Source: Nitrosomonas sp. Nm132 (GTDB lineage: Bacteria > Pseudomonadota > Gammaproteobacteria > Burkholderiales > Nitrosomonadaceae). From it: DNA of 64,000 nucleotides. The stretch spans positions 1 to 64,000 of the forward strand of contig NZ_FNDH01000013.1 of assembly GCF_900100485.1 (NCBI RefSeq), given 5' to 3'. The translations under genes were made by a program, and so were the position numbers. A model generated the notes under the pieces. The model searched no databases. It worked only from the letters and a program-made list of their open reading frames with translations, and was not told the DNA's origin. Below, one piece after another: positions 16,087-63,045 of this stretch (position 1 is the first letter of the stretch; every line of letters starts with the position of its first letter).

Positions 16087-16254
16087 TAGCCCGAATATTT
16101 CATAAATTCGCGTGATGATCACGCAGGATTTTGATTAATAGGGAAGTTTTGAGAAGGAGGGGTGTAGTGATTCATACACCCGACCGAGCAAAATCTTTCT
16201 TATTAATCAAAAGACAAGTGAGGGCACGTGCCAATTTATGAAATATTTGGGTTA
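16087..16254 (+). mobile_element. Palindromic MITE, full copy A
   Basis: 168 bp counted from TA to TA. Ends are CCCGAATATTTCATAAATT at the left and its near-complement at the right (one G/A change). Inside are GCGTGATGATCACGC, TTTTGATTAATA (16129-16140) paired with TATTAATCAAAA (16201-16212), an apical stem GGGTGTA/TACACCC (16160-16166 and 16175-16181, loop GTGATTCA), and GGCACGTGCC. There is no coding capacity. It borders the IS982 fragment. Confidence 0.88.
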
Positions 16255-16461
16255 AGTAAGTTGAAGAAATGAAGATAATCGCCATGCGCCAGAGAATCTT
16301 TGCCGAAATCAGGTGCCGGCATATTTTCCAAATTGTCAGGGGAGTTAAAAAACTTATTAACTACAGATCTCAGCTACCGTCTGCGGGCAGGAGATTGTCG
16401 AGTATTTTTTTGAGTTCGATAGCGGCTATGCGTATTATTGATATTGAAGAGGTGATAAAAC

Positions 16462-16707
16462 GTGATAAGCACACTCGCTAGCTACCAGACCATTTTGGAT
16501 AGCAATGGTAAACCCACCTTTGTAGTTGTTTCCTATGCTGATTTTGTCAAACTGCCCTGCGTAGTGCGACCCGGCATGATCGCGAATGATGTGGCCGGCA
16601 AACGCATGGGCATCACGCAAGCCGGTTACGCGCAAATCGAGGCCGCCAAGCGCCCTCGCAAGGCAACGCCGGAAAAGGCTGCGACGGCTATGGGCATCAT
16701 CCTGTAA
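16462..16707 (+). pseudogene. Decayed helix-turn-helix antitoxin
   Basis: The 81-residue frame begins with ILDSNGKPTFVVVSYADFVKL, typical of the N-terminus of HTH antitoxins that end in a Cro/C1-like domain. It finishes with RMGITQAGYAQIEAAKRPRK, the recognition part of that domain. The middle, which normally holds the W-REYLGLTQ stretch, is missing or scrambled, so the protein is probably non-functional. No partner toxin is recognisable upstream or downstream. Confidence 0.5.
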
Positions 16708-16800
16708 CAGTTGGCTTATGAACTATGACCAAAAGGATTATTAATCACGAAAGAGTCAGACATTGAGGCTCTTAGCATCGTCCAGGAAGTTCTCCACAGT

Positions 16801-16968
16801 ATGCTACCGACTCTCGCCGCTAGCAGCACAGCCGACCTCGGGGATATCGGTTCCGCGCTTGAGTTTACTGCCGCAAATGGGACAATTAATCCAATGGCCG
16901 GACAAATGCTCACTGATCTCGCCTCCGGAGCAACCGGACTGCACGCTGCTGGCATTAGGAAACAATGA
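16801..16968 (+). CDS. Unrecognised short ORF (possible remnant)
   Basis: From the ATG at 16801 the frame codes 55 residues rich in Ala, Thr and Gly (MLPTLAASSTADLGDIGSAL...). The same frame is open upstream to 16729 without a normal start codon (LITKESDIEALSIVQEVLHS precedes). The composition looks protein-like and helical, but I recognise no family and see no ribosome site. It may be the tail of a lost gene. Confidence 0.2.
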   Translation: MLPTLAASSTADLGDIGSALEFTAANGTINPMAGQMLTDLASGATGLHAAGIRKQ

Positions 16969-17085
16969 TCGCAATAGCCCCATGCGTCAACAACAAATGT
17001 TTCATTTTGCGATGCCATTGCTTATATCTCCTTGTTACGTTTATTCTCATGTTTTTTTCTCCTTGATATTTTTCGGAGCATTCTT

Positions 17086-17538
17086 ATGAACATTTTTGAT
17101 GGAATCGATAAGCTAATTAACGGAAATGAATCTGCTGCCATATTGAAAGAACCCGTCCTTCTTCTTAAGGAGCAGTTCGCTGCTCTCTATGCGCAGCTTT
17201 CCATATGCAGAAATCAGGCGACGGCACTTATGGAAGAAATATCAAATCTTAAGATGGAGAACGAAAATATTAAATTTGAGAACCGCAAGTTGCGCGAGAG
17301 AATAGAGAGTTTTCATAATATTAAGTTTGAGAACCACAAATTGCGCGAGAGAATAGAGGATTTTCATAATTCCAACCCTCATGAACATGCTTGCGAGCAT
17401 TGCGGATCAACTAAACTGAAACTAATACGCAGCCGACATAGCCACATATTTGAGGATTTAGGCGTTAGAAATGTGCTTTTTACATGCGATGAATGTGGAA
17501 ACGAATTGTCTGTCATGATTGCTTTGCCTAGTAGTTAA
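17086..17538 (+). CDS. Coiled-coil protein with C-terminal zinc ribbon
   Basis: A 150-residue protein starting at the ATG preceded by CGGAG. Residues about 40-100 form a coiled coil (MEENENIKFENRKLRERIE...). The C-terminus has two cysteine pairs, CEHCGSTKLK and FTCDECGN, about 35 residues apart, as in zinc-ribbon domains. The coiled coil contains an exact two-unit duplication of 17 residues (51 bp; 17266-17316 and 17317-17367). It lies alone between mobile-element debris. The family is not recognised; a DNA-binding or adaptor role is only a guess. Confidence 0.6.
   Translation: MNIFDGIDKLINGNESAAILKEPVLLLKEQFAALYAQLSICRNQATALMEEISNLKMENENIKFENRKLRERIESFHNIKFENHKLRERIEDFHNSNPHEHACEHCGSTKLKLIRSRHSHIFEDLGVRNVLFTCDECGNELSVMIALPSS
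17266..17367 (+). repeat. 51-bp in-frame tandem duplication
   Basis: Two adjacent 51-bp units, each coding (N)IKFEN(R/H)KLRERIE(S/D)FH. They differ at only a few bases and add one coiled-coil segment. The high identity points to a recent slippage or unequal exchange. Confidence 0.9.
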
Positions 17539-17550
17539 GGAAGCTTTGAT

Positions 17551-17615
17551 TAAACCCGAATATTTCATAAATTGGCAAGTGAGGACACGTGCCAATTTAT
17601 GAAATATTCGGGTTA
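17551..17615 (+). mobile_element. Short MITE copy (two ends only)
   Basis: 65 bp from TA to TA. The left end CCCGAATATTTCATAAATT is followed by GGCAAGTGAGGACACGTGCC and the perfect right end. The central ~100 bp of the full element is absent. It would form a strong hairpin and separates the zinc-ribbon gene from an ISNCY-type transposase fragment. Confidence 0.85.
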
Positions 17616-17616
17616 A

Positions 17617-17949
17617 CCCACGTATAACTGCGATTGCCGCCATCAGAACGGTACCAGGCGTAAAAGTGCTTGGCGCTCCAACCCAAGTGACGATTGCGGT
17701 AGCGCTCTACTAACCACATGACTTCATCTACCGGTGCCCGCCGGTGCGATACCTGCGCACAAGACGCTTATCCACTAACGCATCCAATCCACCCGCATCA
17801 TGCCGGTTCATATAGCGCCGGAATGTGCGATCGCATACCCCAAGCAACAACGCCGCTTCCGATTGCGTAAGGTTCCTCTTTCTGTAACCTTGATACGCTT
17901 CTTCAAATCTCATCTTCCCGGTCTCCTGTAGCCATTCTGTCCGTTTCAT
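17617..17949 (-). pseudogene. ISNCY-type transposase, N-terminal fragment (frameshifted)
   Basis: The first 73 residues contain WLQETGKMRFEEAYQGYRKR and the helix-turn-helix LTQSEAALLLGVCDRTFRRY, the N-terminus of ISNCY-group transposases. After LVDKRLVRRY the reading shifts frame into HRRAPVDEVMWLVERYRNRH and GWSAKHFYAWY, which continue the same family. The gene then ends abruptly at the short MITE (17615). It is both frameshifted and truncated, hence dead. Confidence 0.75.
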
Positions 17950-18169
17950 CTGAAATCCTCCCCGGATTCCATATAAACCGGACAGATCATTTGCTACAAG
18001 TCCGGACAGTTTATTTGCTCTCTACATTTCTATTTCTCAAATATTGCCATTCTAAGTAAATATGCGTAGAATCTTCGTAAACCCCCTACCATGTTTGTGT
18101 GCTTCCTAAGAATGAATGAGGGTTGTATCTAAGAGTGAAAAAGTAAATTTTCAAAAGGAGATAGTAGAA

Positions 18170-18289
18170 ATGGAAGAGAATAGAAGAACTGATGAAGCAG
18201 GTTTGTTCAAAGTAGTCGCGATCGCAACGATTGGTATCATTATTGCAGGGGCAATCGTATTTATGACGGGGATGGGCGGTAAATACTAA
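18170..18289 (+). CDS. Small single-span membrane protein (39 aa)
   Basis: A strong ribosome site (AAAAGGAGAT, 18153-18162) stands about 8 bp before ATG. The 39-residue product has a charged N-terminus (MEENRRTDEAG), then one hydrophobic helix (about residues 12-33, VVAIATIGIIIAGAIVF) and a GMGGKY tail. The match of ribosome site, start and clean transmembrane segment argues for a real gene. The family is not recognised. It might be a small subunit of a membrane complex or a toxin-like peptide; neither is shown. Confidence 0.55.
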   Translation: MEENRRTDEAGLFKVVAIATIGIIIAGAIVFMTGMGGKY

Positions 18290-18815
18290 TTGATTTATTT
18301 CTGTAGATACCATGTTTCCCTGCTTCCCTCTTGGCATATTTGTTAATCAAGGTAAGTGTCAAGAGTGATTTATGTAAATGTTATGAAGGCTAGAAGCTGG
18401 TAGCTTTAAGCTATTGCTTCTAGCTGAATTAGATAGATCATTAGTTCTTTAGATTACTGATTATCTCCTAGTAAGTAATTGCTATTAGTGAAATATCAAG
18501 GCCGTAATTGGATGAACTTGATGAGATGAGTCTTTGCAGTGATTTAACACTACGGAATGTTGCGCCGTAGATGTATGTTGAAGCCTTTCCCACAGAATGC
18601 ACCTTTCTTCCCTGTAAATTATGCGAATGTGCGGCATGATATCCGCTATCAGTTCAAACACATATTATTACGCTTAAATCCACTTTAACTTTCCAGACAC
18701 CCAGACTTCATTTGAAATATCGTGCCTGCGATGCGCTGAACTCATGGCGAACCTTCTCATTAAGAAATTGGTAATTCGCCAATTATGCCATTCTCTTGCC
18801 TTGTGACGGTATCAC
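18290..18815. other. Non-coding stretch after the 39-aa gene
   Basis: No gene can be supported. The stretch contains one strong hairpin at 18389-18424 (listed separately) and otherwise unremarkable AT-rich sequence up to MITE copy B. Confidence 0.4.
18389..18424 (+). other. Strong hairpin (possible terminator or small RNA end)
   Basis: GCTAGAAGC pairs with GCTTCTAGC (9 bp). Inside, TAGCT pairs with AGCTA around a TTA loop. No T-run follows, so intrinsic termination is uncertain. Confidence 0.4.
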
Positions 18816-18984
18816 TAGCCCGAATATTTCATAAATCCTGCGTGATGATCACGCAGGATTTTGATTCATAAGGAAGTTTTGAGAAGGAGGGGTGTAGTAA
18901 TTCATACACCCGACTGAGCAAAATCTTTCTTATTAATCAAAAGGCAAGTGAGGGCACGTGTCAATTTGTGAAATATTCGGGCTA
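18816..18984 (+). mobile_element. Palindromic MITE, full copy B
   Basis: 169 bp from TA to TA, same layout as copy A. Left arm AATCCTGCGTGAT/ATCACGCAGGATT is a near-perfect palindrome here. Ends read TAGCCCG and CGGGCTA. The right arm has two substitutions (GTGTCAATTTGTG). Confidence 0.88.
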
Positions 18985-19073
18985 GAACCACATTTACCTG
19001 GATGAGAGGGTGCATGGGGCGGCAAAGCACGAGATAACTGTCAGTTTCTCAATGCGGTTATTTTGGATTTTAA

Positions 19074-19640
19074 GGGCAGGCGCTCCGTAGCGTGGCTTGC
19101 TACCCTCCTATGGCGATTGGAAGAACACACACCGTTGCTTTTGCCGCTGGCGTGACCACGGCATTTGGGAATTTTTATTGGAACAGTTGATTGATAAGCC
19201 AGATGATGATTGGTTAATGATGAATGCCAGTCACATCAAGGTTCATCCATATGCTGCTAGTGCAAAAGGTGGAAATCAGGATATGAACCACACAAAAGGA
19301 GGCTCAACACAAAATTGCATCTGGCCGTGGATGCATTTGGTATGCCGGTCAGGATTATTATGCAAGATATACTCATCCCAGCGGATTGTACACAAGCTTC
19401 TCGCCTGACTGAGGGTATTACAGTCAAATATTTGCTTGTGGATCGATCGTGGCTACGACAGCGATATTATTGTTGAGCAGGCTAAAATTCAAGGCATGAA
19501 GCCTGTGATTCCATCTCGAGAAAACCGGAAAATACCCAGAAATTGCAATCCAGAGCGCTATCGTTCACGTCACATTATAGAGAATGTACTTTTACATCTC
19601 AAATGATGGTGTGGTATAGCTACACGCTATGCTAGCCCAA
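19074..19640 (+). pseudogene. IS5-family transposase remnant
   Basis: The frames contain LLPSYGDWKNTHRCFCRWRDHGIWE, DDWLMMNASHIKVHPYAA and TKGG, then after a frameshift DCTQASRLTEGI and, in another frame, IVEQAKIQGMKPVIPSRENRK and HIIENVLLHLK. This is the order of an IS5/IS427-group transposase with its DDE residues. There is also a TAG in the expected RTGAPWRDLP region, so several lesions are present. The 3' end stops at a MITE remnant (19633). Confidence 0.8.
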
Positions 19641-19661
19641 ATATTTCATAAATTCGGGTTA
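19633..19661 (+). mobile_element. MITE remnant upstream of argH
   Basis: TAGCCCAAATATTTCATAAATT is joined directly to CGGGTTA, i.e. one end plus the last bases of the other. It lies ~32 bp before the argH start codon. Confidence 0.75.
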
Positions 19662-19693
19662 AACTATATAGCGATAGCAACCAGATAATCTAA

Positions 19694-21100
19694 ATGGAGA
19701 AGAAAGCAGCAGTGGAAAATCATTCCAAAACTTGGTCAGGACGATTCAATGAACCTGTTTCTCAATTGGTGCAGCGATACACCGCCTCAGTTAATTTTGA
19801 CAAACGATTAGCTGAATACGATATACAAGGGTCGCTGGCTCATGCACAAATGCTTTCATCAGTCGGTGTGATAAGCTCGGCTGACCTGACTGCCATCGAG
19901 CAAGGCCTTGGTCAAATTCTCGAAGAAATTCGGAATAATGCCTTTGACTGGCAAATTGAGTTAGAAGATGTTCACCTTAATATTGAGAAACGACTGACCG
20001 CGCTGATTGGTGATGCCGGAAAAAGATTACATACCGCACGCTCCCGCAATGATCAGGTTGCTACCGATATACGGCTTTATCTGCGGGCTTCGATCGATGA
20101 GATCGTCAATCTCATCAGGAAAATGCAGCAAGCTTTATTGGATCTAGCCGAACAGCATACTGAGACGGTCATGCCGGGTTTTACCCATTTGCAAGTAGCT
20201 CAGCCTGTCTCATTCGGCCATCATCTCATGGCTTATTATGAGATGCTATGCAGAGACACAGAAAGGCTGCTGGACTGTCGCAAGCGTGCCAATAAACTGC
20301 CTTTGGGAGCAGCCGCGCTGGCTGGAACCAGTTATCCCATTGATCGTGAAAGGGTCGCACAAGCGCTTGGTTTTGACGGAATCTGCCTAAACTCACTGGA
20401 TGCCGTATCAGATCGTGATTTCGCAGTGGAGTTTTGCGCCTGCGCAGCACTGATCATGACGCACCTGTCGCGCTTTTCTGAAGAGCTGATTATATGGATG
20501 AGTCCTGCGTTCAGTTTCATTCAACTTGCGGATCGTTTTTGTACCGGCTCATCCATTATGCCGCAAAAGAAAAACCCTGATGTGCCTGAACTGGTTCGAG
20601 GGAAAACGGGGCGCGTCAATGGCCATCTGGTGGCACTGCTGACGCTCATGAAATCCCAGCCGCTTGCCTACAACAAGGATAATCAGGAAGACAAAGAGCC
20701 GCTATTTGATACTGTCGACACATTGGTCGATACCTTCCGGATTTATACGGACATGCTTCCCGGTATAACCGTAAAACAAGACATCATGCGCCATGCTGCA
20801 ATGCGTGGCTATGCCACTGCAACTGATCTGGCAGATTATCTGGTCAAAAAGGGACTACCCTTCCGTGATGCACATGAAATCGTCGCTAAAGCGGTTCGTT
20901 TTGCTGAAAATAAAAACTGTGATTTGAGCGGACTTTCGCTGTCCGAATTGAAGCAGTTTTCCTCCATCATCGAAGAAGATATTTTTTCGATCCTGACTCT
21001 TGAAGGCTCAATGAAAAGCCGCAACCATCCGGGTGGAACCGCGCCAGCGCAAGTCCGTAAAGCGATCAAGCAGGCAAGGCAGGATTTAGCCAATCAGTAA
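19694..21100 (+). CDS. argH: Argininosuccinate lyase
   Basis: Last step of arginine synthesis: argininosuccinate to arginine and fumarate. The fumarase/aspartase superfamily signature [20 protein letters not shown] is present near residue 285, and [12 protein letters not shown] and [13 protein letters not shown] are conserved active-site regions. The 468 residues are normal. The ATG at 19694 has no good ribosome site. An in-frame GTG at 19712 is preceded by GGAGAAGAAAG and may be the true start. The promoter region has been replaced by an IS5 remnant and a MITE remnant. Confidence 0.96.
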
Positions 21101-21103
21101 ATC

Positions 21104-22015
21104 ATGACTCGATTATCCAGTCATTTATCCTTACAATCTCCCTGGCAAGAGATTGCAGCACAGATTTCTTCTTTGGATACTCATTTTGTTCTGGAAAAGA
21201 TCAGCGCTATTGGCGGCGGATGTATCAACGAGACTTACCATATTCAAGGTAACGATCAGCACTATTTTGTCAAACTAAACAAAGCAAGCAGCCTACCCAT
21301 GTTTGAGGCAGAAGCGATGGGGCTTAAAGAAATACAAAATTCTCATGCCTTGCGCGTTCCTGACCCAAAGTGCTGGGGTCATAATGATTTCCATGCTTGG
21401 TTGGTGCTGGAATATCTGGAATTAACAGATACCGCCAAGCAGCACGCCGAAGCACTGGGTTCTGGGCTGGCCGGCATGCACCGTACTTTCTCGGCGCAGT
21501 TCGGATGGATACGTGACAACACCATTGGCTCAACCTTACAGAAAAACGATCGCTCTTCGGATTGGATTCATTTCTGGCGTTATAATCGTTTGGGACATCA
21601 ACTCCAGCTTGCGAAAACAAACGGCTATCAAGGCAAACTGCAAACCCAGGGTGAGCGGCTTATGGCAGACTTGGAATTATTCTTCACTGGATCACGCATC
21701 AACGCCTCTTTATTGCACGGTGATCTGTGGAGTGGCAATTATTCATTTAATTCGGCCGGACAACCCGTGTTGTTCGATCCTGCGGTATATTATGGAGATC
21801 GCGAGGCCGATCTCGCGATGACCGAGCTTTTCGGAGGATTCCCGGCACAGTTCTATGCGAGTTATCAAGACGCCTACCCTCTCGATGCAGGCTATCGTAC
21901 TCGCAAAACACTTTACAATCTCTACCATGTTTTGAATCATCTGAACCTGTTTGGAGGGGGATATCTGCGTCAGGCAGAGCAGATCCTGGATAGATTGCTT
22001 GCTGAAATAAAATAA
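21104..22015 (+). CDS. Fructosamine-3-kinase family protein
   Basis: A predicted cytoplasmic kinase of glycated amines, in the aminoglycoside-phosphotransferase-like fold. The motifs are IGGGCINETYHI (nucleotide loop), FVKLNKA (lysine), the catalytic LLHGDLWSGNY and the magnesium-binding LFDPAVYYGDREADLAM. At 303 residues it matches the family. It starts 3 bp after argH stops, so it is probably co-transcribed. The true substrate in bacteria of this type is not known from sequence. Confidence 0.88.
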   Translation: MTRLSSHLSLQSPWQEIAAQISSLDTHFVLEKISAIGGGCINETYHIQGNDQHYFVKLNKASSLPMFEAEAMGLKEIQNSHALRVPDPKCWGHNDFHAWLVLEYLELTDTAKQHAEALGSGLAGMHRTFSAQFGWIRDNTIGSTLQKNDRSSDWIHFWRYNRLGHQLQLAKTNGYQGKLQTQGERLMADLELFFTGSRINASLLHGDLWSGNYSFNSAGQPVLFDPAVYYGDREADLAMTELFGGFPAQFYASYQDAYPLDAGYRTRKTLYNLYHVLNHLNLFGGGYLRQAEQILDRLLAEIK

Positions 22016-22088
22016 AGTATGGGTGCAAGGCTTCACAATTTTTTGTGTCTGATTGTAATAGAATAAGATTTGGGTAAGATTGAACGCT

Positions 22089-22121
22089 AGAGCCACTAAA
22101 TTGATTAGGCTCTTTGTTATT
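22089..22121 (+). terminator. Rho-independent terminator after the argH unit
   Basis: AGAGC and CTAA pair with TTAG and GCTCT around an ATTGA loop, followed by TTTGTTATTT. It lies 74 bp after the fructosamine-kinase stop. Confidence 0.65.
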
Positions 22122-22150
22122 TAACGAATTGAAATTGAATAAGGACTGCT

Positions 22151-23662
22151 ATGCCACAAAGCTCAACAAATATTTATAAGCGTCTTCAAAGTCTCGAAAA
22201 GCATCTTGCTGAAGAACATCCTGATAATCCGGTATTGGCTAAGGCCGTTCATAGTTTCCGTAAATTAGATCGCGTCGCTCAGGATATCGGGTTGCTGGAT
22301 AGAAATGAATCTTACGCAACCTATGTTACCTGGTGGCCGATGATTGCGGTGCTGGGAACATTCTCGGCGGGTAAATCAACTTTTATCAATTCTTACCTAG
22401 GCCTGCATTTGCAACGCACAGGCAATCAGGCAGTCGACGATAAATTTACGGTTATTTGCTACGGTAGCGACCATGAAGTCAAGACGTTACCCGGTGTAGC
22501 ATTGGATGCTGATCCGCGTTTTCCTTTTTTCCAAATCAGCCGGAGTATCGCAGAAATTTCAGAAGCTGGACCACAGCGTATCGATGCTTATATTCAGCTA
22601 AAAACATGCCCTTCCGAAAAGATCCGCGGCAAGATTATGATTGACTCTCCCGGATTTGATGCAGACAGTCAGCGTAACTCTACTTTACGCCTGACACAAC
22701 ACATTATCGATTTATCTGATCTTGTGCTTGTATTCTTTGATGCACGCCATCCAGAACCAGGCGCCATGAAAGATACTCTGGAATATTTGGTAGCAGGCAC
22801 AATTAATCGCGCTGACTCAAATAAATTCCTTTATATCCTCAACCAGATGGATGTAACTGCTAAAGAAGATAATCCTGAAGAAGTTGTCTCTGCCTGGCAG
22901 CGTTCCCTTGCCCAGGCAGGCTTACTGGCTGGCAAGTTTTACCGGATTTATAATCCTGATGCAGCATCACCGATTGATGATTCGCAAATCAAAGAACGTT
23001 ATGAGAAGAAACGTGAAGAAGATATGGCGGAGATCAATACTCGCATGCAGCAAATCGAAATCGAACGATCTTATCGTATAGCCGGTATGCTCGAGCAAAC
23101 GGCAGAAACCATTGAGAACCAGGTTATCCACAAGCTTACCAGCATGCTTCATAGCTGGAAAAAAAGAGTCATCCTCTTTGATGGCATTCTATTCAGTATA
23201 TTGCTACTTCTAAGCGGCGCGGCTTTATATCAGACAAACAGCTGGGATCTGTTGAAAACATTCTGTGGAAATGTCATGGCCAATGAAACCCCTTCACTCG
23301 TCATGCTTGCCTCGTTACTAGGCTTTATTGGCTATATTCATTTTACTGTTCGCAGCAAGGCAGCTAACAGTATCATCAAGAAACTTCCTGTAGAATTTGG
23401 TCATGATCATACTACCTGCAAGCAATACACGCAGGCATTCATTAAAAGTACAGCAGCCTACCGACCCATGTTTCTACAAAAACCAGCTGGCTGGAATACG
23501 GCCAATCAACAGATACTCGGTCAGGTCAAGAATGAAGCCAATGATTATATTCAATCATTGAATGATCTATTTACTAACCCATCTGGCCGCAAAGCTGAAG
23601 TTGAAGAAGAACCCACGGTAGAAACCGTAACTGAGGTTGAAACCAAGGCCGAGCAATCTTAA
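22151..23662 (+). CDS. Dynamin-like GTPase, membrane-associated
   Basis: A 503-residue dynamin-superfamily protein. The G domain has G1 GTFSAGKSTFINS (about residues 73-85), G3 DSPGFDAD and G4 NQMD. Two hydrophobic helices follow at about 340-360 (ILFDGILFSILLLLSGAALY) and 380-400 (VMLASLLGFIGYIHFTV), then a helical tail ending in an acidic Glu/Thr-rich stretch. It probably acts at the inner membrane in remodelling or stress protection; that role is by analogy with bacterial dynamin-like proteins. It forms its own unit after a terminator. Confidence 0.8.
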   Translation: MPQSSTNIYKRLQSLEKHLAEEHPDNPVLAKAVHSFRKLDRVAQDIGLLDRNESYATYVTWWPMIAVLGTFSAGKSTFINSYLGLHLQRTGNQAVDDKFTVICYGSDHEVKTLPGVALDADPRFPFFQISRSIAEISEAGPQRIDAYIQLKTCPSEKIRGKIMIDSPGFDADSQRNSTLRLTQHIIDLSDLVLVFFDARHPEPGAMKDTLEYLVAGTINRADSNKFLYILNQMDVTAKEDNPEEVVSAWQRSLAQAGLLAGKFYRIYNPDAASPIDDSQIKERYEKKREEDMAEINTRMQQIEIERSYRIAGMLEQTAETIENQVIHKLTSMLHSWKKRVILFDGILFSILLLLSGAALYQTNSWDLLKTFCGNVMANETPSLVMLASLLGFIGYIHFTVRSKAANSIIKKLPVEFGHDHTTCKQYTQAFIKSTAAYRPMFLQKPAGWNTANQQILGQVKNEANDYIQSLNDLFTNPSGRKAEVEEEPTVETVTEVETKAEQS

Positions 23663-23675
23663 GAAAAGGCACTAA

Positions 23676-23750
23676 GGAGACTCTGAATAAATCCAATTCG
23701 AACTGGATACCCGCTTTAGCGGGTATAAAAACGACTTATTCAGAGGCTCC
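23676..23750. mobile_element. 75-bp mini-element with inverted ends
   Basis: GGAGACTCTGAATAA (23676-23690) faces TTATTCAGAGGCTCC (23736-23750), 14 of 15 positions complementary. Between them lies the hairpin ATACCCGC-TTTA-GCGGGTAT. It sits at the truncated end of a metallophosphoesterase fragment and may also terminate transcription from both sides. Confidence 0.65.
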
Positions 23751-23854
23751 CTCATACAAAGCAGTCTGCTACGTTGAAAAATATCAGCCTTACCCAAATG
23801 AAAATCCGCAATCAAATATCCCGGTAATGCCGGGGGGGTTGCTTTGGCTAACAT
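23751..23854 (-). pseudogene. Metallophosphoesterase N-terminal fragment
   Basis: The minus-strand frame begins MLAKATPPALPGYLIADFHLGKADIFQRSR. The LIADFHLGK segment carries the DxH metal site of calcineurin-like phosphoesterases of the ligase-associated/PdeM type. After about 35 residues the frame enters the 75-bp mini-element and the similarity is lost. The rest of the gene is gone. Confidence 0.55.
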
Positions 23855-23904
23855 CGTAAGTATCCGCGTTGAGGACTAGTCCATGCCTTTATACCAAGAG
23901 AGTT

Positions 23905-24243
23905 TTACTTGCCCCCAGGCTTGTTAGTCTTAGTTTCAATAATTTCAGCATCTTCAATTTCAACATACTTCTCTTCCCCATCAAACCTGCCGGACTTTTG
24001 CAGTTTACGACGTAACCACCAGAATCTAATTCCAATACCAGCAGCCACGATCACAAATAAAGCAAGAAAAATCGAGAAAAAAAACATACCCATAAACAGT
24101 ATCCCAATGAATATTGGAATAAGCGCCAAGTAAAATAGCCAGCGCTGGAAAGGAGAACCAGGAGCAGATCCGTTCTGCGGCGACTCTGTCTGCTTATCAT
24201 CAATTATTCTGCTGATGATTATTTTTCTATGATCATCATTCAT
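23905..24243 (-). CDS. Small two-helix membrane protein
   Basis: A 112-residue protein with a polar N-terminus, two adjacent hydrophobic helices (about residues 35-53 and 55-72) and a charged C-terminal tail (KKLQKSG...EIEDAEIIETK). The start overlaps the pepP stop by 4 bp (ATGA), so it is translated with pepP. No specific family function is recognised. Confidence 0.75.
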   Translation of the reverse strand: MNDDHRKIIISRIIDDKQTESPQNGSAPGSPFQRWLFYLALIPIFIGILFMGMFFFSIFLALFVIVAAGIGIRFWWLRRKLQKSGRFDGEEKYVEIEDAEIIETKTNKPGGK

Positions 24244-25547: not shown

Positions 25548-25612
25548 ATTGATTTGTTCTTTTTACAGGAATATCAAGGGAAAGCAACACAAAATGGCCA
25601 CTTCCACAAAGA

Positions 25613-28348: not shown

Positions 28349-28364
28349 CTAATAAAGGACCTCT

Positions 28365-29084: not shown

Positions 29085-29136
29085 CAATCTACTTTATTTC
29101 AGATAGAATGAACGCTACCAGCCGCCAGGAATCAGC

Positions 29137-29511: not shown

Positions 29512-29593
29512 GGCCAAACAAAATCAGCATAAGAAAATAATCGCTACGTGAGGCTTAAATCTACCTATTGACGCTTTTTCTACCTGTTTATTC

Positions 29594-30547: not shown

Positions 30548-30601
30548 TCGACTAAAAAATCTATGTGCTGCCTTGATCTCCGGGCTTTACCAGAAAGGAA
30601 A

Positions 30602-30630
30602 GGGGAATAATGGAATTATTTCCCTAAATT
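30602..30630 (+). terminator. Likely terminator after thrB
   Basis: GGGGAATAAT pairs with ATTATTTCCC (one G-T pair) around a GGA loop, 54 bp after the thrB stop, followed by a weakly T-rich tail. Confidence 0.5.
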
Positions 30631-30753
30631 TGATTCAACGGAATCATCTGCTTGATATCCACAGTCCCAGGAAATCTGTAAGTACTTCTGGAAAATGAAT
30701 AGATTTTAAAAACAAATAACCCGTTACAAAATTCATTGGAGAAAACAAAATTG

Positions 30754-31551: not shown

Positions 31552-31554
31552 TCC

Positions 31555-33795: not shown

Positions 33796-33832
33796 AACTC
33801 AGAAGGAAGTGTTGCAGTGTACTCAGCTTGTA

Positions 33833-33890
33833 CCTACCTGAGAGCGAATAATGAGGAGCTATCATAACGCTCACTCTCTTCCCAGGTAGG
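33833..33890 (-). terminator. Long inverted repeat between phosphoribulokinase and uvrD
   Basis: CCTACCTG (33833-33840) pairs with CAGGTAGG (33883-33890), and GAGAGCG inside pairs partly with CGCTCACTCTC. It lies 11 bp after the phosphoribulokinase stop on the minus strand and is a plausible terminator. No clear T-run follows. Confidence 0.4.
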
Positions 33891-33900
33891 CTTTGTAAAA

Positions 33901-34770: not shown

Positions 34771-35118
34771 TTTGCTACTATCTCCTTAAATATAAACAAC
34801 AATGCTGAATTTACCGATGATCTCTACGCCACTGGCAATAACCTTGTATGATACCTCCTTTCCACACTGTTTTGACAGGTAATCACCTGAAAATATAAAT
34901 TGAAAGCAATCCGGCAAGCTCTGAATAAGTCGTCAGATAGCATGAAGTAAAGTAAGACGGAGCGTGGGAAACGAGAGAACGAACGGAGTAAATTTCGATG
35001 AAACGAGCGTAGTAAAGCGCATCGTTGGCGGTTGATGCAGTTCATGCTCCGGCGCATCATCTACCCAATATCACAATACCTTATTCACGTCCCCCACTGA
35101 TTTCCAGGAGATTGACGA
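34771..35118. other. Intergenic stretch with element-end fragment
   Basis: Holds the phosphoribulokinase leader at its left. CTCTGAATAAGTCGT at 34919-34933 is identical to the inner part of the right end (read inward) of the 75-bp mini-element at 23676-23750. The G+A-rich stretch after it (to about 35065) looks like non-coding repeat sequence. No gene is supported. Confidence 0.45.
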
Positions 35119-35916
35119 TCACTTAACACAACGAGGGCTCTTGCCCGCGGCCCTGGCTTGTTGTTGTAACCGCTGCGCCTGAGGCAGCCGGGCTTGCAGA
35201 TCCTGAATGCGCGTAGCATGGGAAGGATGCGTTGAGAGAAACTCGACAGGTTGGCTGCCGTGGCTAGCTTGCGCCATTTTTTGCCATAGGGTAACGCTTT
35301 CTGCAGGATTAAAGCCCGCTTTCGCCATGAGATCCAGCCCAATCGTATCGGCTTCACTCTCATGCAATCTGCTAAAAGGCATGATAACCCCATACTCCGC
35401 GCCGATCCCCAGCAAACTGATCGCAGTCTGGCCCATTGCCGTCTGCGGCGCTGCTACCGCTTGAACCAGGGCTATTCCTGCTTGCGCGCCTAATTGCTGC
35501 GACATGCGTTCATTACTGTGTCTGGCCAGGACATGACCTACTTCATGACCGATGACTGCAGCTAATTGATCCTGATTATCAACCAGATCAATCAGACCGG
35601 TATGTACCCCGATTTTTCTACCTGGCAGTGCAAACGCATTCAGCGATGGGTCGTCAAACACGACCACTTCCCACTCCCCTCCAATTTCACGCGTGATCGC
35701 ATTGGCAATACAGCTTACAAATTGGTTATTTTTGTTGTTATGGTTAATGGGTTTTTCCTTTTTCAAATTTTCAAAAGCCTGAAGCCCCATGCTATCCAGT
35801 TCAGCATCTGGCATAAAAGCCAATTGCGTTCTGCCCGTTGGCGACGTGGCGCACGCAGCCAGAAAAAAGATAAATAGCAAGGTGCAAAACGGCTTTAAGT
35901 ATTGATTAATGATCAT
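35119..35916 (-). CDS. M48 family zinc metalloprotease, lipoprotein
   Basis: A predicted membrane-anchored periplasmic peptidase. The start at 35916 is chosen because GAAGG lies about 8 bp upstream and it leads straight into the signal peptide with lipobox LAAC. The zinc site is HEVGH in VIGHEVGHVLARHS, and the third ligand lies in HESEADTIGLDLM. It resembles LoiP/YcaL-type M48 proteases of envelope quality control. An upstream in-frame ATG (35958) is a less likely start. Confidence 0.88.
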   Translation of the reverse strand: MIINQYLKPFCTLLFIFFLAACATSPTGRTQLAFMPDAELDSMGLQAFENLKKEKPINHNNKNNQFVSCIANAITREIGGEWEVVVFDDPSLNAFALPGRKIGVHTGLIDLVDNQDQLAAVIGHEVGHVLARHSNERMSQQLGAQAGIALVQAVAAPQTAMGQTAISLLGIGAEYGVIMPFSRLHESEADTIGLDLMAKAGFNPAESVTLWQKMAQASHGSQPVEFLSTHPSHATRIQDLQARLPQAQRLQQQARAAGKSPRCVK

Positions 35917-35949
35917 TTCAAAACCCTTCGATAAATATTCGTTAATTGA

Positions 35950-38634
<2,685 letters not shown>

Positions 38635-38650
38635 GAATAATGCGCTGCCT

Positions 38651-38666
38651 TGAAATATTCGGGCTA
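38651..38666 (+). mobile_element. MITE end remnant
   Basis: TGAAATATTCGGGCTA, the last 16 bp of the palindromic MITE, 16 bp after the leuS stop. The rest of the element is missing. Confidence 0.6.
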
Positions 38667-38694
38667 ATAAACAAAGATACTCAAATGCTGGATT

Positions 38695-38780
38695 TATACT
38701 CATCGCACTTCAAAATCCGGCAGCTAGACCTTCTCCCGCTGGGAGAAGGCCGGATGAAGGATGATAAAAACCGAATTTTG
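38695..38780 (+). repeat. Dispersed ~86-bp repeat, copy 1
   Basis: Runs from TATACTCATCG to ACCGAATTTTG and contains the stem CCTTCTCCC/GGGAGAAGG around GCT (38729-38749). An inverted second copy lies at 62895-62986. It sits in the lptE leader and provides a longer open frame upstream of the true lptE start. Confidence 0.85.
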
Positions 38781-38822
38781 AAGGGTGATGCGTATAAACT
38801 GGAAATAAGCGTTATCGATATT

Positions 38823-39326
38823 ATGAAACCCATCCTTGCATTCCTTGCGATCACTCTTATGCTCACACTCACCGCCTGCGGCTTCCATTTGCGCGGACAA
38901 ATCACCGCCCTGCCATTTGACTCTATTCATGTCACCGCGCCACCAGGCCATTCCATCAGAATCGATGTCGAGCGTGCCATTCGTGTCAGCACCAATGCAA
39001 AAGTTGTCAAAAAACCAGAAAAAGCTCAGGCCATCCTGCAGATCCTGAGCGCGGTTAATGAAAAGAAAATTCTGTCTCTTTCAATTGGTGGGCGCGTCAG
39101 GGAATTTCAGTTAGGCTATCGTATTTCCGCGCGCCTGATCGACTCCCAGGGTGCTGAAATCGCACCCGTTGAGGAGATCAACGTGACACGGGTGCTCCCT
39201 TTCCTGGATGAACAGGTTCTCGCCAAAGCAGCAGAAGAGGAAATGCTTTACAAGGACATGCAGTCAGACGCTGTGCAGCAGATCATCCGGCGCATCGCCG
39301 CAATCAAGCCTCACCCGTCATTTTGA
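38823..39326 (+). CDS. lptE: LPS-assembly lipoprotein LptE
   Basis: Outer-membrane lipoprotein that plugs LptD for lipopolysaccharide insertion. The start at 38823 gives a signal peptide with lipobox LTAC, followed by GFHLRGQ, the standard LptE N-terminus. The 167 residues are normal. The frame is open upstream through a dispersed repeat, but that extension would bury the signal peptide. It lies between leuS and holA as in other betaproteobacteria. Confidence 0.92.
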   Translation: MKPILAFLAITLMLTLTACGFHLRGQITALPFDSIHVTAPPGHSIRIDVERAIRVSTNAKVVKKPEKAQAILQILSAVNEKKILSLSIGGRVREFQLGYRISARLIDSQGAEIAPVEEINVTRVLPFLDEQVLAKAAEEEMLYKDMQSDAVQQIIRRIAAIKPHPSF

Positions 39327-39366
39327 GAAAATGTTAAGCCTTGCATAATTCCAATCAAACTCATTT

Positions 39367-40386
39367 ATGAGCATCAATCCCGATCAGCTTTCCCGTCACT
39401 TGCAAAAACAGCTCGCACCGCTTTATGCCATCGTAGGCGACGAGCAACTGCTCGCAATGGAAGCAGCGGACACGATTCGCGCTCATGCCCGGCAACACGG
39501 CTACGCCGAGCGGGATATTTTTACGGTAGACCACCGTTTCGACTGGTCTAATCTGCAACGATGGCGCTGCCAATCATCATTATTTGAAGAACGGCGGTTG
39601 CTCGATATCCGTATTCCTTCAGGCAAGCCTGGAAAAGAAGGCGGTCTCGCTATCGAAGCACTCTGTCAGAGCCAGTCTCCTGATACCATAACGCTCATAA
39701 CGCTGCCCAAAATTGATAAACAGACCCAGACCAGCAAATGGTTTAAAGCGCTCGAGCATTCAAGCGTAATGATCGCCGCCGATCCGATAGCACACTCCCG
39801 GCTGGCAAACTGGATTGAGCAACGCCTCGCGCTACAAGAACAGCACATTGCGCCGGATACCCTGCAATTTCTCGCAGACAAGGTGGAAGGCAATCTTCTG
39901 GCGGCCCAGCAGGAGATCAAGAAACTTGCCTTACTCTATCCGCCTGGCATGCTTTCTTTTGAGCACGTCAAGAATGCCGTGCTCGATGTCGCGCGCTACG
40001 ATGTATTCAGCCTGTCTGAAGCCATGCTGACGGCGGATACCGTACGCTACACCCGTATCCTGGAAGGACTGCAAGGTGAAGGCACGCCCCCTCCCCTGAT
40101 ACTGAGTGCGCTGACTGAGCCCATTCGCACGCTGCTGCAAATTCACCAGGCAGTGGGTACAGGTAAGCCACTCGCGCAAGCGTTAAAAGACGCACGTGTC
40201 TGGAGTCAGCAGCAGAAAACCATGACGACTGCCGTAAAACGCTTGCCCCCTCGATTACTTTTACAGGCGCTTTTACACGCCGCAAGCATAGACAGAATGA
40301 TCAAAGGCGTCGCCAAGGGTGATATTGGAAATGAATTACTGCAACTTGGATTGCGCCTCACGACCCGTCAATCTTTTGCGCACTGA
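39367..40386 (+). CDS. holA: DNA polymerase III delta subunit
   Basis: Clamp-loader subunit that opens the beta clamp. The N-terminal domain has YAIVGDEQLLAMEAADTIR, and the family stretch LLAAQQEIKKLALLYP is near residue 180. The C-terminal helical domain ends near residue 339. Length and position after lptE are standard. Confidence 0.94.
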   Translation: MSINPDQLSRHLQKQLAPLYAIVGDEQLLAMEAADTIRAHARQHGYAERDIFTVDHRFDWSNLQRWRCQSSLFEERRLLDIRIPSGKPGKEGGLAIEALCQSQSPDTITLITLPKIDKQTQTSKWFKALEHSSVMIAADPIAHSRLANWIEQRLALQEQHIAPDTLQFLADKVEGNLLAAQQEIKKLALLYPPGMLSFEHVKNAVLDVARYDVFSLSEAMLTADTVRYTRILEGLQGEGTPPPLILSALTEPIRTLLQIHQAVGTGKPLAQALKDARVWSQQQKTMTTAVKRLPPRLLLQALLHAASIDRMIKGVAKGDIGNELLQLGLRLTTRQSFAH

Positions 40387-40440
40387 TATTTCCCGGGTTT
40401 CCGCCCGCGGGAACGATGAAATTGAATAAACGAATTTACT

Positions 40441-40608
40441 TAACCCGAATATTTCATAAATTCGCGTGATCATCACGCAGGATTTTGATTAATAGGGAAG
40501 TTTTGAGGAGGAGGGGTGTAGTGATTCATACACCCGACTGAGCAAAATCTTTCTTATTAATCAAAAGGCAAGTGAGGGCACGCGCCAATTTATGAAATAT
40601 TCGGGTTA
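40441..40608 (+). mobile_element. Palindromic MITE, full copy C
   Basis: 168 bp from TA to TA with perfectly matching ends (CCCGAATATTTCATAAATT and its complement). Same internal inverted repeats as copy A. The centre of the left-arm palindrome reads GATCATC instead of GATGATC. It lies between holA and the OsmC gene. Confidence 0.9.
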
Positions 40609-40640
40609 AGTTCTCTAATAAAAATACAGGAAAAAGACTG

Positions 40641-41057
40641 ATGAAATCACGTATCAAATGGCAGGACGGCATTCATTTCACCGGCGAAACAGAAAGTGGC
40701 CATGCAGTCCAGATAGATGGCGCACCGGATATCGGTGGAAAAAATCTGGGACCCCGCCCGATGGAACTAATCTTGCTGGGACTCGGCGGCTGCTCCTCAA
40801 TCGATGTCATTCTGATTCTGCAGAAAAGCCGTCAGGAAATCACCGACTGCGTCGTGGAAATCGATGCCACCCGGGCTACCGAAGATCCCAAGGTATTTAC
40901 CGATATTCACCTGCACTTCATCGTAACCGGAAAAAACCTGAATGCCCAACAGGTAGAACGCGCGATCAATCTCTCCGCAGAAAAATATTGCTCAGCCTCT
41001 ATCATGCTAAAGAACACAGTCAATATCACCCATGATTTTGAAATCGTTGAAGGATAG
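40641..41057 (+). CDS. OsmC/Ohr family protein, YhfA type
   Basis: A 138-residue thiol-dependent peroxidase-like protein. The cysteine in LLGLGGCSSIDVI corresponds to the first redox cysteine of OsmC proteins. The second conserved cysteine stands in LSAEKYCSASIMLKNTV. AGGAAAAAGACTG gives the ribosome site. MITE copy C ends 32 bp before the start, so the natural promoter may be within or beyond the element. Confidence 0.9.
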   Translation: MKSRIKWQDGIHFTGETESGHAVQIDGAPDIGGKNLGPRPMELILLGLGGCSSIDVILILQKSRQEITDCVVEIDATRATEDPKVFTDIHLHFIVTGKNLNAQQVERAINLSAEKYCSASIMLKNTVNITHDFEIVEG

Positions 41058-41377
41058 TTCTGCAAAATAGAACCGGATGAGTCGATTCCATTCTTATCTG
41101 GTTCTGAAAACCCCCTATTCAATTCTTCCACGTCAATCGACCCAGAAAACCTCCCCTCAGACTCATTTAATAAATCTGAAATAACCGCTTTTTATCGGGC
41201 TGTTCCTTCCCTCACGGCACAACAAACTTCCACATAATCTCAAGCATAAGGTTTTACGTAGCGCTTGCCGCCAGACTCTGATTCATCTCTCGGGACAAAG
41301 TGAATCATTGCCTGGCTGTTCTGCTATTCCGCTATCGTCTGAACACTCTTGATCAACACACTCAATTGCGAACGATT
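41058..41377. other. Intergenic region upstream of the secreted-protein gene
   Basis: 320 bp containing the hairpin at 41069-41105 and presumably the promoter of the next gene. I see no gene and no convincing promoter boxes. Confidence 0.4.
41069..41105 (+). terminator. Hairpin after the OsmC gene
   Basis: AGAACCGGATGAG pairs with CTTATCTGGTTCT (two G-T pairs in RNA) 12 bp after the stop. The tail is not T-rich, so this is a stem that may act with Rho or as a 3' stabiliser. Confidence 0.45.
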
Positions 41378-42859
41378 ATGAATAAATGGACTGCAATAAG
41401 TAATGCCATGATGCTGGTTATGATGCTGATATTTTCCTGTGTAGTCTTCTCTGCGGAGGCGACAATACGGCCACCAGGAGGCACCACCTCATCAGGTGGA
41501 GGCACCTCATCGGGCGGATCATCAGGCAGTAGCACCGACACCAATCAGATTGATCATCTAGAGCTTGTGGTAACCGTGATAAAGAATGAAAAGCCGGAGG
41601 CCTCGGGAAATCTGTTTGCTGAATTAGATGGCCTATCCCTCAGGTTACTGAATAGTCCCATTGGAAATTATGGTTTTCTGGACATCTCTGCAGCCGGCAG
41701 TTTTCGTTATGTCATAAAGAACGATCTGCCGCAGGTTCAGGCTTTGGGCCTCAACGATGTCGCACAAGAAACTTTTCTTTACCAGATTATTACTACCAAT
41801 GACAACACTATTGATGCCAAGCTGACTGTTTATATTCTTGGTAATCCCTCCGTATCTTTTGATAATGTCGAGATTGAGTTCAACAATAGCTCCAATGAAG
41901 CAAGCCCGATTCATGCAGGAAGCGCTTCCCAGATGGGGCAGTATATGCGCGGTCAATTGACGAGTCCCGATGACCGGGACTGGTTCATAGTCAACAGCCT
42001 CGGCAATGAAATCATCAACCTGGAGCTCTGCCCGGAAGGCTCACAGTGCAAGGATGAAAAAGGCTGGGTAATGTACGTTTTCGATGCCGATAAATTTGAA
42101 AGTGAAGGCAATGAAGACAAAACTGTCACTCTCAGGACTTATATAGACCGCACCAATGAAACGCTATCTACCACTCAAGCAAATCATTTCTATTTACTTT
42201 ACGACAAAGGCTTCTTCAATAATAGCCTGATTGGCATCATTGATCCCTGTTTCGGTGACCGGCGCACCCTGGATATCGGGGTAGGTCAACAACCCAAAAA
42301 TTATCTGGTGCTGATCACCTCACCCTTATTCAGGAGTAGTAGTCTTGATCCTCAAATAAACAATGATGTGGAAGGATGTGGCGCTGGGGATGTAGTACTA
42401 GAAAGAGTGAAAGCTACTCTTCCTGGTGGAACTAAGATCATTGAACAATTCATCACCGCATTCCCCTTCTCCGACGATCAATATACCCTGAGAGTCACGC
42501 GTACCGGCGCTGATCCCTTCGCTGTCCTCTCTCCCGATAGCGTAGCATTCGACGCAGTCGGCCGGAAAGCCCATGTCGCCAGGATACGGGTAAATAATCA
42601 GCTATTTACTGCTGAACTGGAGCAGCTGAATACCCCGACAGATGCCAATATCTTAACCACGTTCGGCATCCGGTCGATCCAATCACTCAGCGAGCCGTTA
42701 ACGGCGGATCCTTATCTGCCAACCTATAATCCGGTTAACCAGATCGTTAAATTTCCTCAAGTGCTCGATACTCAATCCGGTGCCGTGTATTCAGTCGAAA
42801 TGCTCTATCAGCCCGAGAGTAATACGCTGAATCTGCTTAGAGCAGTGCCTGTTCATTGA
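41378..42859 (+). CDS. Large secreted protein of unknown function
   Basis: From the ATG at 41378 the product has a signal peptide (MLVMMLIFSCVVFSAEA) and then a low-complexity Gly/Ser/Pro linker (residues about 29-50). A beta-rich repeat region follows with AAGSFRYVIKNDLP, reminiscent of cadherin-like or VCBS segments. LTSPDDRDWFIVNSLGNEIINLEL resembles a pre-peptidase C-terminal (PPC) domain. Four or more cysteines suggest disulfides. The C-terminal half is not recognised. An earlier in-frame start (41300) would spoil the signal peptide. A terminator follows at 42888. Confidence 0.7.
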   Translation: MNKWTAISNAMMLVMMLIFSCVVFSAEATIRPPGGTTSSGGGTSSGGSSGSSTDTNQIDHLELVVTVIKNEKPEASGNLFAELDGLSLRLLNSPIGNYGFLDISAAGSFRYVIKNDLPQVQALGLNDVAQETFLYQIITTNDNTIDAKLTVYILGNPSVSFDNVEIEFNNSSNEASPIHAGSASQMGQYMRGQLTSPDDRDWFIVNSLGNEIINLELCPEGSQCKDEKGWVMYVFDADKFESEGNEDKTVTLRTYIDRTNETLSTTQANHFYLLYDKGFFNNSLIGIIDPCFGDRRTLDIGVGQQPKNYLVLITSPLFRSSSLDPQINNDVEGCGAGDVVLERVKATLPGGTKIIEQFITAFPFSDDQYTLRVTRTGADPFAVLSPDSVAFDAVGRKAHVARIRVNNQLFTAELEQLNTPTDANILTTFGIRSIQSLSEPLTADPYLPTYNPVNQIVKFPQVLDTQSGAVYSVEMLYQPESNTLNLLRAVPVH

Positions 42860-42887
42860 ATGCGTGTGCATTGACGTACTGGGGTCA

Positions 42888-42914
42888 GGGTGATGAAGCG
42901 ATTCATCACCCTTT
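42888..42914 (+). terminator. Rho-independent terminator
   Basis: GGGTGATGAA and TTCATCACCC form a perfect 10-bp stem around GCGA, followed by TTTC. It ends the secreted-protein transcript. Confidence 0.7.
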
Positions 42915-43072
42915 CACCCGCCGCCCTTGAATTTCAGTATTCAATGCGTCAGGCAGTAACCACCAGCGGGCATAGCGCCGCATGTGCTTCGTTTAATGTT
43001 TCAAGACCGGGAAAAATAAGTCGTTATGTTAATAAATGACAACCTTAATCCAGTTGAACAGGAGAAACGATC

Positions 43073-43765
43073 TTGATTCTGCTTGCCAGTTCCTGCGAAG
43101 AAAAACTTGCTCATTGGAAGCAAGGATTATCGGATATTTCTACCCTGATCTGCCTGACCGATCTGGATTCTCTCTCACATGAACTGATCAGAAGATCCCC
43201 TCCCATCCTTCTGCTTGATCATGACTTACTCGGTATAGACAGCCTGCAGATCATTGAAAGCCTGCTGGTGCTGAGCCCTAAAACCCGGATCATATTATCT
43301 ATCCACGGCCTTTCCGATGAAATGGAGTGGGCGTTATTTAAATCGGGCGTCAGGGGATTTTGCCTGGACACCATCGAGCCTGAACAAATCAAACGCGCAG
43401 TCAAGGCTGTCTGGCAAGGCGAACTATGGATCCGGCGTAAGCTGGTCCAGCACATGCAAAATGAGCTGGCCATAACCTTGCAAGAAAAAAAACAAATTGA
43501 ACGCGCAGTAAATAGCTTGCTTGAAAATTTAACCCGGCGCGAATATGAAATCGCCATCCTGGTAGGGCGCGGTGAAAGCAACAAGCAAATTGCCAGACAA
43601 CTGGATATCACCGAACGAACCGTCAAGGCACACCTGACCGAGATATTCCGCAAGCTGGCCATTTCAGATCGAATCAAGCTGGCCCTGCTCGTCAAGGATA
43701 CCGCCGCCACATCGAATCAGACAGACATCGATCATGACAGCGACTACCCCACCATTTCTGTCTAA
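43073..43765 (+). CDS. LuxR/NarL-type response regulator, atypical receiver
   Basis: TTG start with AGGAG upstream at 43060. The N-terminal domain resembles a response-regulator receiver: the phospho-acceptor could be the Asp of LLLDHDLLG (near residue 49), and the region LSIHGLSDEMEWALFKSGVRGF matches the later part. The usual N-terminal acidic pair is absent (MILLASSCEEKL), so phosphorylation may be lost. The C-terminal LuxR helix-turn-helix LTRREYEIAILVGRGESNKQIA, with ITERTVKAHLTEIFRKL, is complete. No sensor kinase is adjacent. Confidence 0.85.
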   Translation: MILLASSCEEKLAHWKQGLSDISTLICLTDLDSLSHELIRRSPPILLLDHDLLGIDSLQIIESLLVLSPKTRIILSIHGLSDEMEWALFKSGVRGFCLDTIEPEQIKRAVKAVWQGELWIRRKLVQHMQNELAITLQEKKQIERAVNSLLENLTRREYEIAILVGRGESNKQIARQLDITERTVKAHLTEIFRKLAISDRIKLALLVKDTAATSNQTDIDHDSDYPTISV

Positions 43766-43786
43766 TACAAAATTCAACCAGCATAG

Positions 43787-43817
43787 TAGGGTGGATAAGC
43801 AGCGCGTCATCCGCCGC
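43787..43817 (+). repeat. REP sequence (GGGTGGATAAGC type), unit 1
   Basis: GGGTGGATAAGCAGCGCG followed by TCATCCGCC forms an imperfect palindrome, as in betaproteobacterial REP repeats. It lies 15 bp upstream of a RAYT transposase start. Confidence 0.8.
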
Positions 43818-43831
43818 ATGCTACTTGGTTA

Positions 43832-43888
43832 ATGCCGAACTACCGGCGCAATCGCATCCCAGGCGGAACCTACTTCTTCACGGTTAAC
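43832..43888 (+). pseudogene. REP-associated (RAYT) transposase, N-terminal fragment
   Basis: The ATG opens MPNYRRNRIPGGTYFFTVN, which is the characteristic N-terminus of RAYT (IS200-like Y1 HUH) transposases. At codon 18 (GTT-AAC) the sequence enters MITE copy D and the gene is lost. A REP lies immediately upstream, as expected for this gene type. Confidence 0.75.
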
Positions 43889-44052
43889 CCGAATATTTCA
43901 TAAATTGGCACGTGCCCTCACTTGTCTTTTGATTAATAAAAAAGATTTTGCTCAGTCGGGTGTATGAATCACTACACCACGCCTTCTCAAAACTTCCCTA
44001 TTAATCAAAATCCTGCGTGATCATCACGCGAATTTATGAAATATTCGGGCTA
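43885..44052 (-). mobile_element. Palindromic MITE, full copy D (reverse orientation)
   Basis: 168 bp from TA to TA, inverted relative to copies A-C. It joins a RAYT 5' fragment (left) to a BrnT toxin 3' fragment (right), two genes that would not normally be fused. Confidence 0.9.
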
Positions 44053-62986: not shown

Positions 62987-63045
62987 CTTCAAGCAGGTAT
63001 GGAATGCGCTGGATACGGCGGGTATCCCTTTCATCCTGCATTAAC

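Follow-up and report, generated by a model that had tools for sequence, protein, structure and literature searches.

Bacterial miniature inverted-repeat transposable elements (MITEs) are commonly viewed as paired transposon ends that play a passive part. We describe here such an element from a 64,000-nucleotide stretch of Nitrosomonas sp. Nm132 (contig NZ_FNDH01000013.1, positions 1 to 64,000; hereafter the window), which in our judgment is probably a MITE with ends of the IS1380 type and with a one-strand fold that is selected in spreading lineages and not at each insertion. The passages of PMC2229807 and PMC3049150 drawn on here describe Correia/NEMIS, ERIC, and RUP as small repeats with inverted ends, many copies, and transcripts predicted to fold; the first source tabulates all three with TA termini and ties RUP to IS630. 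The same passages of PMC2229807 give the YPAL/RU-2 repeat of Yersinia as 168 bp long with a target duplication, although its inverted repeats are internal and its duplications span 3-26 bp, unlike those of the element considered here.

A repeated element with 4-bp YTAR target duplications

Four full elements of 162-163 bp lie in the window, one of them in inverted orientation, together with two shortened copies and a remnant of a single end:

16086..16255, + strand: full copy 1, element 16090-16251 (162 bp), flanks TTAG / TTAA
17555..17612, strand not assigned: internally deleted copy, 58 bp, flanks TAAA / TTAA
18815..18985, + strand: full copy 2, element 18819-18981 (163 bp), flanks CTAG / CTAG
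40440..40609, + strand: full copy 3, element 40444-40605 (162 bp), flanks TTAA / TTAA
43884..44053, - strand: full copy 4, inverted, element 43888-44049 (162 bp), + strand flanks TTAA / CTAA
59898..59943, strand not assigned: internally deleted copy, 46 bp, flanks TTAG / TTAA
63041..63075, - strand: remnant of one end, 27 bp (63045-63071), flanks TTAA / TTAA

A sequence-only reading of this DNA had listed four copies, all of which are present, the fourth on the minus strand. Its extents of 168-169 bp took in part of the duplicated target: the element proper is bounded as CCCG...GGG in the window's full copies, and the R that had been placed in the element ends belongs to the YTAR target. The 58-bp and 46-bp copies and the 27-bp remnant are additional to that list.

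When up to 2 mismatches are allowed, the 18-base end CCCGAATATTTCATAAAT is found 200 times in forward and 193 times in reverse orientation throughout the 3.2 Mb source genome (genus Nitrosomonas; G000 below), compared with 0 and 1 for a reversed-pattern control; these counts correspond to about 190 copies of the element. Among the 72 distinct full copies retrieved, which are not every copy in the genome, the 4-bp flanks are identical in 57 (the exact flanks include TTAA 32 times, CTAG 12, and TTAG 9, then CTAA, TGAA, CTAT, and GTAA once each). Asymmetric duplications make up 13 of these 57, for example TTAG...TTAG in 9 copies, and the atypical targets GTAA, TGAA, and CTAT are likewise duplicated exactly. 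Because asymmetric sites such as TTAG match on both sides, the outer target bases are themselves duplicated; the simple TA targeting supposed earlier gives way to a duplicated YTAR target of 4 bp. An exact 4-bp match is also seen in 21 of 35 full copies of Nitrosospira 40_S54 (G085). Short, with inverted ends, many copies, and a target site duplication, the element is a bacterial MITE.

Empty sites were expected to carry a single TA. A paralogous empty site was indeed found in L073 for a 48-bp copy of L009, with 147 of 181 columns identical, and it carries a single TTAA. When 165 joined-flank queries were searched, four hits spanned the junction: one clean empty site, one hit in G011 with a 15-base remnant-like sequence where the element would be, and two ambiguous hits. 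No orthologous empty site was found near copy 3, where the best matches in relatives end before the junction (at most at query position 693 of 744).

Ends of the IS1380 type

PF13701 (IS1380) has 18 matches in G000, and one intact protein there is IS1380 by NCBIfam (E 2.9e-124). The ends of IS1380 copies in this genome and its relatives, such as CCTGAACATTGCATAAAT, CCTGAATGTTGCATAAA, and CCTGAATTTTTCATAAA, adjoin YTAR, and the element's end has the same base at 15 of 18 positions, counted by eye, as the ends of IS1380 fragments in G000 (C25 and C92). Three IS1380 copies have both ends visible, with flanks CTAA/CTAA (L130), CTAG/CTAG (L365), and TTAG/CTAG (L090); in this small sample, exact in two of the three, the element and the IS1380 copies agree in target and duplication length. 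A degenerate pattern made from the element's ends has matches in each of six genomes searched, against 0 control matches in all six, and in G207, with at most 1 mismatch, it finds MITE-type ends together with many IS1380 ends, including those that bound the L365 transposase. This likeness of the ends argues strongly for a MITE with IS1380-type ends, and we infer mobilisation in trans: an IS1380-family transposase encoded elsewhere would move the element into YTAR, the 4 bp of which are duplicated.

One candidate autonomous element, at C39:75491-76434 (L060 992-1935; ends 944 bp apart), was rejected, as it consists of a gene between two inverted 23-bp remnants, an arrangement that mimics a transposon. 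The gene is probably yajQ-like; no empty site was found around the yajQ-like locus in the two loci compared (L414 and L419), where the flanks have diverged. Separately, G414 holds end pairs 124-147 bp apart (C104:3730-3876, C176:3995-4141, and C115:1460-1583), in which the two ends differ (CCCGAATGTTTCATAAA and CCCGGACATTTCATAAA) and which may represent another MITE family with ends of the IS1380 type.

A fold with compensatory change across families

The predicted fold of copy 1 has an energy of -80.2 kcal/mol, compared with a mean of -33.7 in 200 dinucleotide shuffles, none of which folds as well (z = -12.8). For an alignment we chose, from 103 elements of 156-164 bp, 43 members more than 8 edits apart. 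RNAalifold gives 53 pairs for these, 32 of them changed on both sides; with the structure fixed, 96.9% of cells are paired, compared with 35-50% in slid controls, and none of 500 shuffles attains the real value on any of five measures. The element thus shows compensatory change beyond both shuffled and slid controls, as a structured RNA does, which supports the sequence-only reading in its proposal of a palindromic MITE with selection on structure. The central hairpin is subject to ascertainment, because 31 of the 43 members were retrieved through an exact 25-base core; outside it, the count for inner pairs is 29 of 36, and members found later by covariance model, free of the core requirement, retain a similar core.

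The side arms, which had been read as two separate branches, instead pair with each other across the hairpin, where 5 of 9 long-range pairs covary and 26 cells have changes in both partners; a local branch formed by the left arm alone was rejected, with compensatory change in 0 of 6 pairs. Unpaired bases within the hairpin are conserved, and asymmetric unpaired bases persist. On one given strand, about 53 pairs would build a long hairpin of irregular shape, and the retention of this fold in relatives despite changes of the letters suggests that the fold matters for spread.

Some members carry additional sequence. Extra inserts of about 28 bases occur in the left loop of L142, L159, L171, L213, L214, L219, and L191, and others of about 50-75 bases interrupt the fold at different places in L155, L191, L204, L205, and L210; several hold a motif like CCCTTGCGGG, which might point to insertion of a further repeat or of a peripheral stem that varies. 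A divergent member, L316 (G142:C9:43233-43395), has an outer stem of ACCGGGCAAGT and ACTTGTCCCGGT, of other letters yet pairing, with TCAA on both sides.

Constraint on one strand

To count substitutions, we placed single changes from Watson-Crick pairs by parsimony on a FastTree phylogeny. In the inner stems 58 such changes lead to G-U and 14 to A-C, and in the terminal stem 24 and 7, whereas transitions in the two matching directions at unpaired sites, which serve as the control, number 46 and 49. With the central hairpin excluded the counts are 54 and 11 (p 6e-8; against unpaired sites, p 7e-6). These counts use plus-strand calls of the pairs; a repeat of the test with pairs called on the minus strand, a calling that biases against the result, gave 39 and 16 overall (p 0.003). 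The plus strand also folds better in 43 of 43 members (mean -79.9 versus -60.3 kcal/mol) and in 72 of 72 G000 copies.

Because single changes give G-U much more often than A-C, there is strong evidence for a structural constraint on one strand, as RNA or as single-stranded DNA (ssDNA); together with the covariation, this excess shows that purifying selection has kept the strand's fold across bacterial families. Neither template-switch correction nor a double-stranded cruciform is expected to give such asymmetry, and both are disfavoured on this ground; the protein-bound cruciform of the sequence-only reading is accordingly not favoured, while the RNA that it suggested is a candidate beside ssDNA, the data fitting both. 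Orientation relative to genes is balanced (++ 18, -- 19, by a crude gene call based on open reading frames): no oriented bias was found among 71 copies in G000 (60 having a neighbour to either side and 6 lying within open reading frames) or among 76 elsewhere (57 and 17).

Level of selection

Recent copies behave differently from the deep tree. We considered the 63 of the 72 G000 copies that are 162 bp long, leaving aside 9 of other lengths; they lie on average 1.66% from their consensus. At Watson-Crick pairs they show 21 changes to G-U, 22 to A-C, and 0 compensated changes (distinct sites 18 and 18; singletons 15 and 14), and the ratio of 18:18 differs from the 54:11 of the deep tree (p 0.001). 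With G-U and A-C changes equal and none compensated, the resident G000 copies look neutral, and since the constraint is not visible on these inserted copies, it most likely acts on lineages that are still spreading. This placing of selection on spreading lineages instead of on each insertion, drawn mainly from the comparison of G000 with the deep tree, would mean that the folded strand aids propagation or comes in trans from a small number of intact copies, and that inserted copies decay. The strand would more probably be an RNA made by read-through transcription than ssDNA.

Shortened forms and remnants

Decay appears to proceed by collapse of the hairpin through deletion between short repeats of its two ends; the junctions are visible in forms of 46-58 bp and in 23-bp remnants. 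With YTAR demanded at either flank, a pattern search counts 19 of the 23-bp forms in G000 (13 + 6 matches), with identical flanks in 15 and a single transition between the flanks in the other four. They consist of CCCGAATATTTCATAAATT followed by CGGG (10), CGCG (8), or TGGG (1), and the CGGG and CGCG forms may reflect deletion between the ATTCG-G repeats that the two ends share, the crossover falling on one side or the other of a single mismatch. A similar solo remnant is present in G011, and forms of 57-72 bp are present in G085. On the minus strand of L103 (G011:C99), 15 bases like a decayed right end stand where G000 (L226) has a full copy, which suggests an old shared insertion that was shrunk by deletion. 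Near 653 in L134 (minus strand), a 15-bp remnant, CCCGAATATTTCAGG, has CTAG on either side and is some 100 bases away from a 23-bp remnant with palindromic flanks.

Distribution

The element, whose presence elsewhere the sequence-only reading had left to be checked, was found in other genomes by BLAST, by core pattern, and by covariance model. BLAST places it in 7 of 61 genomes, G000 included (54 of the 60 others have no match). With strict filters, the covariance model detects it in 24 of 399 genomes examined from the order, again including G000, and in 12 of 158 genera. Exact matches to the core pattern amount to 86 stretches, from records of Nitrosomonas, Nitrosospira, Hydrogenophilales, Hydrogenophilus, Thiobacillus, Sulfuricella, Sulfurimicrobium, Sulfuriferula, Tepidiphilus, Methylophilaceae, Ectothiorhodospiraceae, and others. 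Plasmids gave no match to the element, and viral contigs 0 matches to an exact 19-base end. The element is not a known Rfam family: at gathering score there are 0 matches in the window and only tRNAs in 16 other loci, and a permissive scan of 2 loci gave only chance-level matches below that score.

In three Thiobacillus genomes (L160, L179, and L184) a copy occupies one shared place between genes that, judged by their sequences, are probably suhB-like and trmJ-like. In L179, the long trmJ-like reading frame has ATG AAA CAC ACG GAC within the element's terminal stem, and the flanks are not YTAR.

Weighing the explanations

If the element's product were a structured RNA that acted in trans to the benefit of host or element, a few intact copies per genome would suffice, and most copies in a high-copy genome would for that reason be free to decay, as the neutral G000 copies seem to be. 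Strong covariation, the conserved unpaired bases, the copy held at one place in three Thiobacillus genomes, and a singleton bias in a biased sample from Nitrosospira G085 (described below) fit this idea as well. We still regard it as unlikely: with the element absent from 54 of 60 genomes by BLAST and from 375 of 399 of the order by the strict covariance-model search, no host group needs such an RNA, and copy 1 has no promoter-like site and copies no preferred orientation. Improbable to a greater degree is an ordinary MITE with IS1380-type ends and no selected fold, its inner arms kept alike by template-switch correction of the palindrome. A transposase that must bind both ends would make them change together, so the covarying terminal stem follows, as does the neutrality of the G000 copies; the inner stems covary too, however, and correction would have no strand preference, yet G-U exceeds A-C by 58 to 14 (39 to 16 with minus-strand pairs), the 63 recent copies hold 0 compensated changes, and asymmetric unpaired bases remain uncorrected.

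The folded strand may instead be ssDNA that replication or transfer exposes and an enzyme recognises; integron attC sites offer a somewhat similar case of enzyme-recognised folded ssDNA. One favoured strand, genes without a link to orientation, and the lack of a promoter-like site would suit this alternative, which we rate as rather improbable, as inverted ends with a 4-bp duplication are the product of a DDE transposase acting on double-stranded DNA. Least probable of all, in our view, is movement by a transposase of another family (IS630, or an IS5-type enzyme with YTAR targets). It would account for the carriers in which IS1380 was not found, and a reading-frame end at 2-112 (36 residues, ending ...PMEWRFTNDDARVKLKKLYLTLEE*) has a putative likeness to the ends of IS630 transposases, though NCBIfam gave no match for it. 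The IS630 link drawn by the sequence-only reading finds no support, since a TA-only duplication is excluded and the element's ends match those of IS1380, in a comparison that did not extend to IS630 elements or to IS630 and IS5 ends.

Several observations weigh against our preferred explanation, in which selection in spreading lineages maintains the fold of a MITE with IS1380-type ends. PF13701 has no match in 10 of 22 distinct genomes carrying the element or its end (G016, G022, G067, G050, G360, G414, G302, G450, G184, and G088; G072 and G087 share coordinates and count as one). Among these, G360 has about 27 copies in a 91% complete assembly, and G302 and G414 are 99% and 87% complete; G414 has an IS1380-like end close to a contig edge (C154:127-147) despite the missing match. 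In such carriers the transposase may have been lost, be missing from the assembly, or be a different one. No autonomous element sharing this interior was found. Not all of the family duplicates 4 bp: IS1247, a member from Paracoccus, is listed with a 5-bp repeat in a table of PMC3281130. With minus-strand pairs the inner stems on their own give 18 and 8 (p 0.08), and no promoter-like or terminator-like site was found within 16000-16400, around copy 1. Finally, 34 copies of Nitrosospira 40_S54 show 13 G-U and 4 A-C singletons with 2 compensated changes, which suggests constraint on individual copies there, in a sample that is biased because it is the top of a covariance-model ranking.

Comparison with known systems

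With the IS1380 family the element shares CCTGAACATTGCATAAAT-like termini, YTAR at the ends, and residence in the same genome; it differs in having no transposase gene and in its conserved interior fold, which was not seen in IS1380 copies, these having been inspected for ends only. It departs from Correia/NEMIS, ERIC, and RUP, as the cited passages describe them, in its 4-bp YTAR duplication, IS1380-type ends, cross-family covariation, and strand bias, and it lacks the TA-only, 2-bp duplication of a RUP-type MITE mobilised by IS630. The word "compensatory" is absent from the main texts of PMC2229807 and PMC3049150, and "covar" from the main text of the latter. No description of this repeat was found in the literature collection searched, including by core string.

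The element adds an abundant repeat family, without an Rfam match, to those of ammonia- and sulfur-oxidising bacteria and their relatives. This widespread family preserves a one-strand interior fold over long evolution, although insertions in one genome look neutral; if our explanation is right, the fold serves the element's propagation or works in trans, and a single genome with so many near-identical copies allows a direct test. Eukaryotic short interspersed elements (SINEs) and retrozymes have spreading lineages that keep a fold while inserted copies decay. A bacterial MITE that requires a folded single strand for its spread, where a DDE transposase works in concert with a step through RNA or ssDNA and resident copies lose the fold as in SINEs, would be a doubtful but conceivable extension of this likeness. 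The likeness is one of pattern only: unlike SINEs and retrozymes, the element has ends and a 4-bp duplication that indicate a DDE DNA transposase, and it bears no sign of reverse transcription.

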